Below are positions 41,122 to 45,054 of a stretch of 47,581 nt of DNA, piece after piece. The notes beneath the pieces are model-generated. The model had not been told where the DNA came from. It ran no database searches and saw nothing but the letters and a program-made list of their open reading frames with translations. A program made the translations under genes and the position numbers. The stretch covers positions 1-47,581 of the forward strand of contig JANQJR010000047.1 in NCBI GenBank assembly GCA_028281525.1. The letters are read 5' to 3'. Source of the stretch: Magnetovibrio sp. GTDB lineage: Bacteria; Pseudomonadota; Alphaproteobacteria; Rhodospirillales; Magnetovibrionaceae. Every line of letters begins with the position of its first letter. Positions within the stretch are counted from its first letter, which is position 1.

Positions 41122-41823
41122 ATGATGGCGGATCAGGACAGCACCGATCCCGGATATTTACGATCGTACGGCCGGCGGCGCGGCAAAAAACTGCGTCCCG
41201 GCCGCGAACGTTTGATGGCGGAACTTTTGCCGAAGATTGCCGTCAAGCCGGGCGTGCCGCTAACGGACCAGTTTCCTTCAAACATCCGCGAACTGTGGCT
41301 GGAAATCGGCTTCGGCGGGGGCGAGCATCTGGCCGCCCAGGCGGGCGGCCATCCGGATGTCGGCATTGTGGGCTGTGAGCCGTTCGTGAACGGTGTCGCC
41401 AAACTGTTGACGCAGATCGACGCCTTAGGTCTGGACAACGTGCGCATCCATGCGGACGACGCGCGCGATATTTTTCCCGACATTCCCGACGGGGCGCTGG
41501 ACAAGGTCTTCTTGCTGTTTCCCGACCCGTGGCCCAAGGCCAAGCATCACAAACGCCGTCTGGTCCAGGCCCCGTTCTTGGACGACATGGCGCGCCTGCT
41601 CAAGGACGGCGGTGAATTCCTCTTCGCGTCAGACCACATGGGCTACGTGCGCTGGGTGCTGAAACGTCTGATCGACCATCCCGATTTCGACTGGATGGCG
41701 GAAAGCCCCGCCGATTGGCGTGACCCGCCCGATGATTGGACGCGGACCCGCTATCAGCAAAAGGCGTTGGCGGGGGACGTCATCGTTTATTTGCGCTTTC
41801 GCCGCCGCCCGCGCGGGCGGTGA
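41122..41823 (+). CDS. trmB: tRNA (guanine-N7)-methyltransferase
   Basis: SAM-dependent enzyme that makes m7G46 in the tRNA variable loop. It has 233 residues. The SAM-binding motif is LWLEIGFGGGEHLAAQ and the family signature is LLFPDPWPKAKHHKRRLVQ. The C-terminal end TRYQQKALAGDVIVYLRFRR is typical, so the gene truly runs to 41823. As a result it overlaps the 3' end of the opposite-strand membrane protein by 44 bp. Two adjacent ATGs (41122, 41125) are possible starts; no good ribosome-binding site is visible. It is probably co-transcribed with metK. Confidence 0.95.
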   Translation: MMADQDSTDPGYLRSYGRRRGKKLRPGRERLMAELLPKIAVKPGVPLTDQFPSNIRELWLEIGFGGGEHLAAQAGGHPDVGIVGCEPFVNGVAKLLTQIDALGLDNVRIHADDARDIFPDIPDGALDKVFLLFPDPWPKAKHHKRRLVQAPFLDDMARLLKDGGEFLFASDHMGYVRWVLKRLIDHPDFDWMAESPADWRDPPDDWTRTRYQQKALAGDVIVYLRFRRRPRGR

Positions 41824-44275
41824 CGCCCACGACCCCGGCCAAGGCGTAGAGCAAGGCAGCGGCGGCGATGACGAGGCCGAAGCCGAAATGCACCGCCAGG
41901 ATCGTCGCGCCGATCGCGCCGATCACCGAAAAACAGCCGTTGACGCCCCAGGCCCAGGCCACCAATCGCGGCGCGTGCGCGTTCACGCGGCCCAGGCCCA
42001 ACGGGAACGGCATGCCCATGAAAAAGGCCAGCGGGGCGATCAACGCCAGCGACAAGGCGATGCGCCCACCGCCACCCAAGTCCCAGGCGACGGCGAACAC
42101 CCCCGGCAAAGCCGCTTGGTAGACCAACACGCCGCATGCGACCAGTCCCGCCGCCCAACCGGTGGGACCCAGGGCGCGCACCGGTCCGCGTTTCACCCGT
42201 GTTGCCATCCATGCCTCCGCCCACGCGGCAAAACGGGGCGCGATGGCGCTGCCCATTCCGGCGAACACCAGAAATCCCGCCAGCACCACGGCGACGGCGT
42301 AAACGGGATGGCCGAGAAACAGGATGAACCGCTGGATGAAGGCGATCTCGACGAACATGAAGGCAAGCCCCAAACAGGTGAAATAGACCATCACCCGCCC
42401 CGTTCCGACGGAGGACCGGACGGGACGCCGGCGCAGCCACAAGGGCAAGAGGATCAGCGCCGCGGAGAGCACCGTCGCTTGCACCAGGGTCGCGAACAGC
42501 ACCGGATAGCCCCACTCGATCATGCCCGCGCCGCCCACGCTGCGCAGGGCCAGGAATTCGCCCAGGCTCCGCCAACGGAAAAAATCGAAGAAATACGGCC
42601 TGTCGTCCGTGGCGGGGCGAATGTCGAACTTATAGGCGTTGAGGAACCGCTCCCGTTTTGCACCCACCAGGGCCTGCGTGGCTTGGTGGAAGTAGGGCTC
42701 CTGCAGGATGTTGAAACGGTTGGCTTCCTCGGGCTTCATGCCGGGTGCGTAGGCCAGATCGAAAGCGCGCCGGGCGGCGAAGGCGCGGATGACGTCCACG
42801 TCCGCGGGCGCGATATCGGCGGCACGCACTAGGATCGTAACGGTGTTCCAGCCGCGCACCATGGCGATGCGCCCGGCGGGTTCCGTGACGCCTTGACGTG
42901 TCAAAGCGCGGAGCGCCGTGGCGAACAGTTTCAGGCTGTCGCGCGGTGGCAGTTTGAGCCAGCGGGTCACGGCCAGATAACCGCCGGGTTTGAGGCGGCT
43001 GAGATAGGTTTCGAACGCTTCGAGCGTGTAGACGTAGCTTTCGCTGAGGCCGTGCACGCCCGCCGCGCCGGCGGCGAAGGAATCGAGCAGCGGAATTTGG
43101 ATCAAGTCCCATGTCGCGGAGCTGGCAGTCACGAACGCGCGCGCATCGGCCACGTGCACGCGGACATCGGGCCGCCCGTAGAGATCGCCCGCGAACGTGC
43201 GGTGGGTGTCTTGCACCAGCCGCACCACGCCGGGGTCGAGTTCCACCGCGTCGACCGCGTGCGCGCCGTGGTAAAGCGCTTGCAGGACATCCGCGCCGCC
43301 CCCGGCGCCCAGCACCAGCACCTCGGGATCGGACAGAAGATGATACGGCAGGGCCGAGGTGGTGTAGCCGAGATACCCGAGCGCGTCGAGGTCCCCGGAA
43401 AAGGCGGTGATGGGCATGGGCCCGCCGCCGTCGGCGAAGATGCCGAGTTGCGCCGGGGGTTCGGTCTGGTTGAGGAGGCTGAGCCCCGGCGCATGACGGA
43501 ACGGGACCGTGGGGCTTTGCACCACGCTCAAGAGGCTCAGGGGGCTTGAACGTTCAGCGATGACCTGCGCGCCGGGCACGTTCAGCGCCATGCTCAAGCT
43601 TTTGTAGGGCGACATCACGGGGGCTAGCCATGACGGCGGCAGGACCAGAACCAGGGCCGCGCCCATCACCACAGCAACCGCTACCCAGCCCCGATGGCGC
43701 GCCAGCCGCAGGGCCGCGCCCGCCGCCGCCGCGACGCCCAGGGCTGCGACGCCTTTGAGGATGTCTTGGGGCGCGAGGACCATCAAGGCGGCGATCATGC
43801 CCAGCGCGCCGAGGCCGGAGCCCACTAGGTTCACGGCGTAGACGCGCCCGATGACGTGGGCGTATCTTTGAAAGGTAAGGCCGATGCAGTTGGCCCCGGC
43901 GAAAAACGGCACCGTGAACAGCGCGTAGAAGGCCAGCAGATAAAGCAACTGCGTCGGCCGCCACACCACCTCCAACGGATTGAAAGGCAGGTGTTGGGCC
44001 AGTGCGAACCCCGCCAGGCCGCTGATTCCAAAAAACAGCGCATTGACGACGAAGGCGGCGGCGAAGCGGCGTTGAATCCAGGCGCGGGCCAGAAACAGGA
44101 AGGTGCCGCTGGCGCCGAAGCCGAGCAGGGCGATGCTGATCGCCATGTAGGCGAAGTGGTGCCACTGCACGATGGCGAACAGCCGCATCAACAGCACTTG
44201 GTAGGCCAACACGGCGAACGAGATGGCGAAGACGGCGCTGAGGATGGACGGAGGGACGCGCTTCGGCTGCGTCAT
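41780..44275 (-). CDS. polytopic membrane protein with spermidine-synthase-fold domain
   Basis: An 831-residue protein with three parts. Residues 1 to about 230 hold about seven hydrophobic helices (LSAVFAISFAVLAYQVLLMR). The middle (about 280-560) is a spermidine-synthase-like Rossmann domain with the SAM-type loop VLVLGAGGGADVLQALYHGA, acidic strand end VDAVELDP, and VHVADARAFV. From about 590 onward there are another seven or so helices. The aminopropyltransferase catalytic segment (normally DxxDP) reads DLIQIPLLDSF, so genuine spermidine synthesis is doubtful. It starts with ATGA overlapping the stop of the exported Pcm gene, so the two form one operon. The function is unknown. Confidence 0.82.
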   Translation of the reverse strand: MTQPKRVPPSILSAVFAISFAVLAYQVLLMRLFAIVQWHHFAYMAISIALLGFGASGTFLFLARAWIQRRFAAAFVVNALFFGISGLAGFALAQHLPFNPLEVVWRPTQLLYLLAFYALFTVPFFAGANCIGLTFQRYAHVIGRVYAVNLVGSGLGALGMIAALMVLAPQDILKGVAALGVAAAAGAALRLARHRGWVAVAVVMGAALVLVLPPSWLAPVMSPYKSLSMALNVPGAQVIAERSSPLSLLSVVQSPTVPFRHAPGLSLLNQTEPPAQLGIFADGGGPMPITAFSGDLDALGYLGYTTSALPYHLLSDPEVLVLGAGGGADVLQALYHGAHAVDAVELDPGVVRLVQDTHRTFAGDLYGRPDVRVHVADARAFVTASSATWDLIQIPLLDSFAAGAAGVHGLSESYVYTLEAFETYLSRLKPGGYLAVTRWLKLPPRDSLKLFATALRALTRQGVTEPAGRIAMVRGWNTVTILVRAADIAPADVDVIRAFAARRAFDLAYAPGMKPEEANRFNILQEPYFHQATQALVGAKRERFLNAYKFDIRPATDDRPYFFDFFRWRSLGEFLALRSVGGAGMIEWGYPVLFATLVQATVLSAALILLPLWLRRRPVRSSVGTGRVMVYFTCLGLAFMFVEIAFIQRFILFLGHPVYAVAVVLAGFLVFAGMGSAIAPRFAAWAEAWMATRVKRGPVRALGPTGWAAGLVACGVLVYQAALPGVFAVAWDLGGGGRIALSLALIAPLAFFMGMPFPLGLGRVNAHAPRLVAWAWGVNGCFSVIGAIGATILAVHFGFGLVIAAAALLYALAGVVGVTARAGGGESANKR

Positions 44276-45054
44276 GGGGCCCCGCGCACCAGGGGCACGA
44301 ACGCCACCGGCAGGAGTTGGCGCGTGGTGACCTGACCCGCCGAATCCTTTTCGACCAGGACCAGTTGCTGCGTGACGAACGCCCCTCCCACGGGAATCAC
44401 CATGCGTCCCCCGGGCTTGAGCTGGCGCACCAGGGGCGGCGGAATGTGGCCCGCGGCGGCGGTGACGACGATGCCGTCGAAAGGCCCGCACGCTTCCCAA
44501 CCGTAATAACCGTCGCCGATGCGCGCTTCGATATTGGCGTAGCCTTGCCGGCTCCAGGCTTTTGCCGCGGTTTTGCCCAGTTCGGGTATGATCTCGATGG
44601 TGCAGACCTTGTCCACCAGCCCGGACAGTACCGCCGCCTGATAGCCCGATCCCGAGCCGATCTCCAGCACCACATGGTCCGGTTCGGGGGCCAGCAGATC
44701 GGTCATGAGGGCGACGATGAAGGGCTGCGATATGGTTTGTCCGTGGCCGATCGGCACGGGACGGTCGGCGTAAGCCAGTTGCGCCAAAGGGCGGGGGGAC
44801 AGTGTGTTGCGGCCCAGGAAGGCGTGGCGCGGCACCGTATGCATGGTCTCCATGATCTGAGGCGACAGGTGCGCCCGCCCGGTGGCCGATGCGGCGGAGC
44901 GCGCATGTTCGGCGATGGTTTCGATCATGTCCGCACGCAGCGCGGCGAACGGATCGTCCTGCGCGAGGGCTTGCGGGCCCCAGCAGAGCCCCAGCGCGAC
45001 GGTAACGAGAACGCCCGCTTTAAGGGTCCGATTCGTCATAATGCCGCCGGTCAT
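44272..45054 (-). CDS. exported protein-L-isoaspartate O-methyltransferase-like protein
   Basis: A 260-residue Pcm-family protein. The N-terminus is a signal peptide or anchor (LKAGVLVTVALGLCWGPQALAQ with an AxA cleavage site), unusual for an enzyme that needs SAM. The methyltransferase part is otherwise complete: PRHAFLGRNTL, GHGQTISQPFIVALM, the SAM loop VVLEIGSGSGYQAAVLSGL, GDGYYGWEACGPFDGIVVTAAAGHIP, and LKPGGRMVIPVG. Cytoplasmic Pcm repairs isoaspartyl residues in damaged proteins. GGAG stands eight bases before the ATG at 45054; ATG 45039 is an alternative and still keeps the signal. The downstream partner overlaps by four bases. Confidence 0.88.
   Translation of the reverse strand: MTGGIMTNRTLKAGVLVTVALGLCWGPQALAQDDPFAALRADMIETIAEHARSAASATGRAHLSPQIMETMHTVPRHAFLGRNTLSPRPLAQLAYADRPVPIGHGQTISQPFIVALMTDLLAPEPDHVVLEIGSGSGYQAAVLSGLVDKVCTIEIIPELGKTAAKAWSRQGYANIEARIGDGYYGWEACGPFDGIVVTAAAGHIPPPLVRQLKPGGRMVIPVGGAFVTQQLVLVEKDSAGQVTTRQLLPVAFVPLVRGAP

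Follow-up and report, generated by a model that had tools for sequence, protein, structure and literature searches.

A predicted exported Pcm and a co-conserved 14-helix SpeE-fold membrane protein as a candidate periplasmic protein-repair pair

Can bacteria supply S-adenosylmethionine (SAM) to the periplasm? SAM-dependent enzymes are regarded as cytoplasmic because SAM is made there, and a pair of minus-strand genes in Magnetovibrio sp. makes the question testable. The window analysed here is the whole of a 47,581-nucleotide stretch (GenBank assembly GCA_028281525.1, contig JANQJR010000047.1). The upstream gene of the pair encodes P0002, a protein-L-isoaspartate O-methyltransferase (Pcm) with a signal peptide, and the downstream gene encodes P0001, a 14-helix membrane protein carrying a domain of the spermidine synthase (SpeE) fold. 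A sequence-only reading had described the two as an operon joined by an ATGA overlap, and its coordinates, frames and overlap were all correct (Table 1). The pair very probably acts jointly outside the cytoplasm, judging from the evidence set out below, and the chances that it forms a periplasmic isoaspartate-methylation (protein-repair) module with a dedicated membrane partner for SAM appear evenly balanced. Such a module would also be relevant to how isoaspartate damage is removed from long-lived envelope proteins. A PIMT gene of R. palustris matters for survival in growth arrest, according to an excerpt of PMC5705917 that does not state whether that PIMT is exported.

The identity of P0002 is clear from profile matches. 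It matched PF01135 at 184.5 bits (cut-off 20.3) and exceeded the NCBIfam equivalog cut-offs of PRK00312 (204.4 bits against 188) and TIGR00080 (180.6 against 159.05); its closest solved relative is 4l7v. Across an alignment of 40 paired Pcms, including that of the window, Q106, T107, S109, Q110, P111, G133, G135, S136, G137 and E154 are invariant. We take these to represent the Q-T-x-S-Q-P substrate loop of Pcm and SAM motif I. The SAM-binding core is thus intact, as had been claimed. P0002 shares its family, substrate loop and SAM motif with cytoplasmic Pcm/PIMT (PF01135; 4l7v, 3lbf), but differs in possessing a signal peptide and a co-conserved membrane partner.

Co-conservation was examined in loci (L numbers) and genomes (G numbers) retrieved by a scan of genome contigs. 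The close loci are the best 80 of at least 548 relatives, and hence the closest rather than a random sample; by title they belong to the alpha-, beta- and gammaproteobacteria. Pcm lies on the strand of the membrane gene in 76 of the 80 and directly upstream of it in 75, while the four close loci without Pcm (L078, L079, L087, L092) are contig ends that leave no more than 201 bases ahead of the membrane gene. Because the genes are adjacent in 75 of the 76 loci with a visible upstream gene, the side-by-side arrangement is not chance. A 4-base overlap is shared by 22 of these 76 loci. Included in the 75 are L027, where Pcm is cut by the contig end, and L043, where a run of N separates the pair; L043 was also considered as a single-frame Pcm-membrane fusion, which was rejected as the joint is that run of N.

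The pairing extends to more distant homologues. Sisters were defined as the 29 full-length homologues scoring below 560 bits, with split, cut or second-view loci omitted (L110, L120, L123-L128, L150-L155). A Pcm-like gene lies within 1.5 kb of 25 of them, and L115, L117, L135 and L136 have none, also in larger stretches. The one sister Pcm scored against the equivalog models (L165) fell under both cut-offs (163.3 bits for PRK00312 and 146.1 for TIGR00080). The Pcm gene is upstream in most cases, downstream in L113, L114 and L137, and divergent in L218 (a Rhizobium jaguaris plasmid); as gene order varies, the pairing does not reflect one inherited order. The sequence-only reading had named two outcomes that would refute it, a predicted cytoplasmic location of Pcm and a lack of co-conservation in related genomes. 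Neither was observed: the pair is co-conserved among both close loci and sisters, and the Pcm N-termini look like export signals (see below). When 60 genomes were searched, including that of the window, four others held a full-length homologue, each with a Pcm. At E 1e-30, a class sample of 289 genomes gave matches in 17, and a phylum sample of 398 gave matches in 24 (own genome included). In the class sample, close-type membrane proteins (over 550 bits, whole or split) occur in eight genomes, and these also hold the eight best Pcm matches (369.8-392.2 bits); the next Pcm scored 337.6 bits (lists compared by hand). Over 35 pairs, distances among the Pcms correlate with those among the membrane proteins (Mantel r 0.459, a value that none of 2000 permutations reached), which speaks for the module; shared species history is not removed by this test.

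The pair behaves as a unit. In two other genomes of the genus (G003 and G004), neighbouring trmB and rimP are separated by 154 and 209 bases where the window holds the 3.5 kb pair; G002 and G005 have rimP but show no trmB within the stretch seen, and rimP was unmatched in G001 (genes named by eye). Among plasmids, 16 records matched P0001, ten of them over 80 percent or more of its length, in Phyllobacterium, Sinorhizobium, Microvirga, Paraburkholderia and Rhizobium. Pcm adjoins the membrane gene in both close plasmid records examined; the three distant records examined comprise one with a divergent Pcm and two without Pcm. No widely shared third gene was present among the 25 largest clusters of frames of at least 100 amino acids in the 80 loci: clusters of more than nine loci overlie the pair or its other strand (judged from example positions), and the largest other cluster (nine loci) resembles ATP-binding cassette (ABC) ATPases. 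The trmB/rimP junction without the pair in G003 and G004, the plasmid locations and the lack of a shared third gene all point to a unit, which was counted in favour of the module. Two kinds of mobile or defensive cargo were tried and rejected: anti-phage defence, since both proteins only partially match mad2 in PADLOC (34.6 and 82.9 bits), and phage cargo, since the phage collection gave a single weak match and P0001 had no PHROGs match.

The N-terminus of P0002 is Sec-like by eye, with a short segment containing Arg and Lys, a hydrophobic stretch and an ALA-Q site. Homologues were assessed by a strict rule, under which a signal comprises 12 uncharged residues with a mean hydropathy of at least 1.9 before the Pcm core. 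This was satisfied by 72 of the 80 assessable paired Pcms of the close family (81 examined; L027 is cut); a single charged residue in the scored segment accounts for six of the eight failures and a value of 1.74-1.86 for three, with one Pcm showing both. A further eight of nine close-type Pcms from the class and phylum samples passed, as did 16 of 25 sister Pcms. The nine sister failures comprise four Tat-like (twin-arginine translocation) signals (L111, L116, L121, L138), two signals further upstream (L112, L114), one with a single charge (L148) and two (L137, L143) in which no clear signal was seen within the scanned stretch. By comparison, only three of 22 Pcms without a partner within 1.5 kb met the rule (L178, L194, L197), these 22 being the best-scoring of their genomes and not a random draw. 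The genome of the window itself has further Pcm copies, and neither of the two examined passed. By eye, sister signals are Sec-like, or Tat-like in L111, L116, L121, L138 and L218; the Pcm of L114 (= L162, genome G121) has an RR signal with a lipobox, and that of L112/L169 an N-terminal hydrophobic anchor. Export is kept by differing signal types (Sec-like, Tat-like, RR with lipobox), which was counted in favour of the periplasmic module, and the export signal proposed for Pcm is borne out by the difference between paired and partnerless enzymes.

In the two close plasmid records, the RefSeq start of the paired Pcm falls downstream of an in-frame signal peptide (L215:4330-4971) or inside it (L216:4218-4901). 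Such starts may partly explain why export of Pcm has been overlooked.

The membrane partner consists of seven helices, a Spermine_synth match and seven further helices (limits set by hand). The match, to PF01564, covers residues 318-432 at 25.9 bits (cut-off 22.9) and lies between helices 7 and 8, which agrees with the earlier description of a SAM-type Rossmann domain flanked by about seven helices on each side. None of the NCBIfam SpeE equivalog cut-offs was reached (33.2 bits against 472, 29.7 against 260, 20.3 against 537 and 20.2 against 249.55). Counts of Lys and Arg in the loops favoured a cytoplasmic N-terminus in 38 of 38 sequences, including that of the window, and placed residues 215-586 in the periplasm; the N-terminal half alone and the C-terminal half alone each gave the same result in all 38. 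By this prediction, the SAM-type domain shares its compartment with the exported Pcm.

Residue conservation was assessed over 53 homologues, namely 24 of the 38 close sequences and the 29 full-length sisters. In the SAM-type motif, E345 is kept in 53, G327 in 51, G325 in 50 and D398 in 49. The D-x-x-D-P segment, which we take to be the catalytic segment of aminopropyltransferases, is D-C-T-D-P in SpeE (3o4f) and aligns to P-L-L-D-S in P0001. Its first Asp and its Pro are not kept and the first position varies, whereas the second Asp is D398; the segment that had been called lost is thus lost only in part. Sixteen further residues are invariant (R31, S47, G52, Y146, G152, Y631, F632, G636, E643, L654, G673, G675, G754, S783, G798 and Y810), and all sit in or beside helices. 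Such invariance in and beside helices is more than a plain anchor should need, and it is therefore very likely that the membrane part has a role of its own. By sequence, the periplasmic domain has the SAM fold of SpeE/spermidine synthase (PF01564; 6qmm, 3o4f) and of PRK03612, a membrane-anchored form of SpeE; P0001 is unlike SpeE in its missing first Asp and Pro, its 14 helices and its equivalog scores.

These features are consistent with a mechanism in which the exported Pcm would methylate isoaspartyl residues in envelope proteins or peptides, with the 14-helix protein as its dedicated inner-membrane partner. In the mechanism judged most likely, the membrane part would carry SAM from the cytoplasm and/or return S-adenosylhomocysteine (SAH), and the periplasm-facing SpeE-fold domain would probably hold SAM for Pcm to use. 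That the partner serves the supply or turnover of SAM for Pcm in some way is a proposition for which the case is about level; that it actually transports SAM falls a little short of that. SAM/SAH carriers, presumably of other families, occur in intracellular bacteria and mitochondria, and P0001 would share with them the task of moving SAM across a membrane.

The arrangement can also be compared with MsrPQ, in which MsrQ supplies electrons. By analogy, the Pcm pair would follow the same logic, with a soluble periplasmic repair enzyme whose co-substrate is fed through a polytopic partner. The likeness, on the side of the Pcm pair a prediction, lies in two genes for an exported soluble repair enzyme and a co-conserved polytopic partner. 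The co-substrate and damage differ (electrons and methionine sulfoxide in MsrPQ; SAM and, as proposed, isoaspartate in the Pcm pair), and homology is not claimed. MsrPQ is described as a periplasmic methionine-sulfoxide repair system in an excerpt of PMC7451513. The open-licence full-text literature searched yielded no description of this combination, its periplasmic placement or its near-constant pairing. The single domains are already known, and the combination appears undescribed. Tentatively, the pair may represent a widespread unnamed system, in which a 14-helix SpeE-fold protein would deliver SAM and remove SAH for an exported Pcm, giving a second envelope damage-repair pathway beside MsrPQ that has been overlooked partly through gene models that truncate the signal.

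Several observations weigh against a dedicated repair module. The pair is sporadic, being present in none of five other genomes of the genus and 12 other genomes of the family. In a quick, midpoint-rooted tree built from 56 membrane proteins (with a long-branch warning), a branch with 100 percent SH-aLRT (approximate likelihood ratio test) support separated 50 labelled Pcm-adjacent, plus L117, from five Pcm-less proteins; L087 bore the Pcm-adjacent label although its contig stops short of where Pcm would be seen. The Pcm-less clade (L115, L135, L136, L217, L219) has the same make-up, so the membrane fold does not as such imply a Pcm, and L117 keeps the membrane gene with no Pcm nearby. Conversely, the exported-looking Pcms L178, L194 and L197 have no partner: the membrane family was unmatched at E 1e-30 in their genomes (G153, G155, G292), and the L178 Pcm nests among paired Pcms. 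A partner is therefore not required in every lineage. No transporter family was recognised in P0001 by Pfam or NCBIfam up to E 1. A suspected duplication of the helical halves was not significant by HHalign (probabilities of 0.9 and 0.3 percent), beside which the top rank of helices 1-2 against 9-10 in a gapless scan (z 4.3) is a hint.

Other explanations were weighed against the same data. The membrane protein could be a second periplasmic SAM-dependent enzyme, acting by methyl or aminopropyl transfer on Pcm's own substrate and not supplying SAM. RefSeq labels it a SAM-dependent methyltransferase, and the conserved block after the SAM motif (D398 in 49, E412 in 49, Y416 in 47, T417 in 50, G432 in 53 and W439 in 47 of the 53 homologues) may be more than binding alone needs. 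This explanation is nevertheless unlikely, given the missing first Asp of the aminopropyltransferase motif, SpeE equivalog scores far below their cut-offs, and the many invariant residues in or beside helices (R31, G52, E643, G673 and G754 among them); SAM would, moreover, still be needed outside the cytoplasm. A role in transporting or sensing some peptide or polyamine-like compound, which Pcm would then modify while SAM arrived otherwise, is rather improbable for the membrane protein. Oligopeptide-type ABC cassettes between the genes in L052 and directly after the pair in L166, the peptide-type binding protein and ATPase genes that lie upstream on the strand of Pcm in L048, and peptide-type ATPases downstream of the pair on the other strand in L094 would fit such a role, but peptide ABC genes are common and coincidence could account for all four cases. 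When the L052 cassette was compared by BLAST with the frames in the 80 close loci, its binding protein turned up in L048 and nowhere else besides L052 itself, and no third gene is widely shared.

PIMT homologues form succinimide or isoaspartate in some pathways for ribosomally synthesized and post-translationally modified peptides (RiPPs), and the pair might likewise install such a group in one exported substrate. P0002 does have secondary matches to peptide-maturase methyltransferase models (TIGR04188 at 102.3 bits, TIGR04364 at 113.3), but these fall far short of the cut-offs (380 and 320), whereas the cut-offs of the repair-enzyme models are exceeded, and neither a precursor nor an ATP-grasp gene is among the shared neighbours (frames of at least 100 amino acids, so that short precursors could be missed); a RiPP-like role is accordingly improbable. 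Finally, the N-terminal stretch might not export Pcm at all, leaving a cytoplasmic enzyme beside an unrelated membrane protein. The two RefSeq starts past or inside the signal stretch and the eight close-family Pcms that miss the strict rule would allow this, yet paired Pcms from three classes have such a stretch, Tat-like signals take its place in sisters, and two other Pcms of the same genome lack it, which makes a cytoplasmic location highly improbable. The periplasmic isoaspartate-methylation module is the reading preferred here.

Table 1. Features of the gene pair in the window.
Feature	Coordinates	Strand	Basis
Exported Pcm (protein-L-isoaspartate O-methyltransferase), 260 aa, P0002	44272..45054	-	profile matches, alignment
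Signal peptide, residues 1-31, probable cleavage between ALA and QDD	44962..45054	-	by eye; similar stretches in homologues
14-helix SpeE-fold membrane protein, 831 aa, P0001	41780..44275	-	profile match, helix reading
ATGA overlap of Pcm stop and membrane-protein start	44272..44275	-	sequence
Helices 1-7 (residues 10-214), N-terminus predicted inside	43634..44248	-	hand-set limits
Predicted periplasmic domain (residues 215-586)	42518..43633	-	N-terminus inside by loop charges, 38/38; slightly net acidic
SpeE/SAM-type Rossmann part (residues 313-440), GAGGG, E345, D377, D398	42956..43339	-	profile and alignment
Helices 8-14 (residues 587-817), C-terminus predicted inside	41825..42517	-	hand-set limits

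The surroundings of the pair offered some minor observations. The AmmeMemoRadiSam-like genes of three gammaproteobacterial loci (L066, L085 and L100, two titled Woeseiaceae) lie just upstream of the pair by eye; MsrPQ was not seen beside these loci (gene starts by eye), though a Woeseiales paper lists pcm near msrPQ. In L052 (= L156; 787-6001), the intervening oligopeptide-type cassette leaves Pcm 5.2 kb upstream of the membrane gene, and the cassette of L166 (9219-16001) belongs to a lineage distant from L052. Contig C57 of G292, a small genome, carries clustered Spermine_synth-like proteins (L208, L209, L211, L213), some with signal-like N-termini. In the window, a GGAG lies 8 nt 5' of the Pcm ATG (by eye). 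The 3' end of the membrane gene overlaps a convergent trmB by 44 bases (41780-41823), and metK is the next gene beyond trmB (both named by eye).

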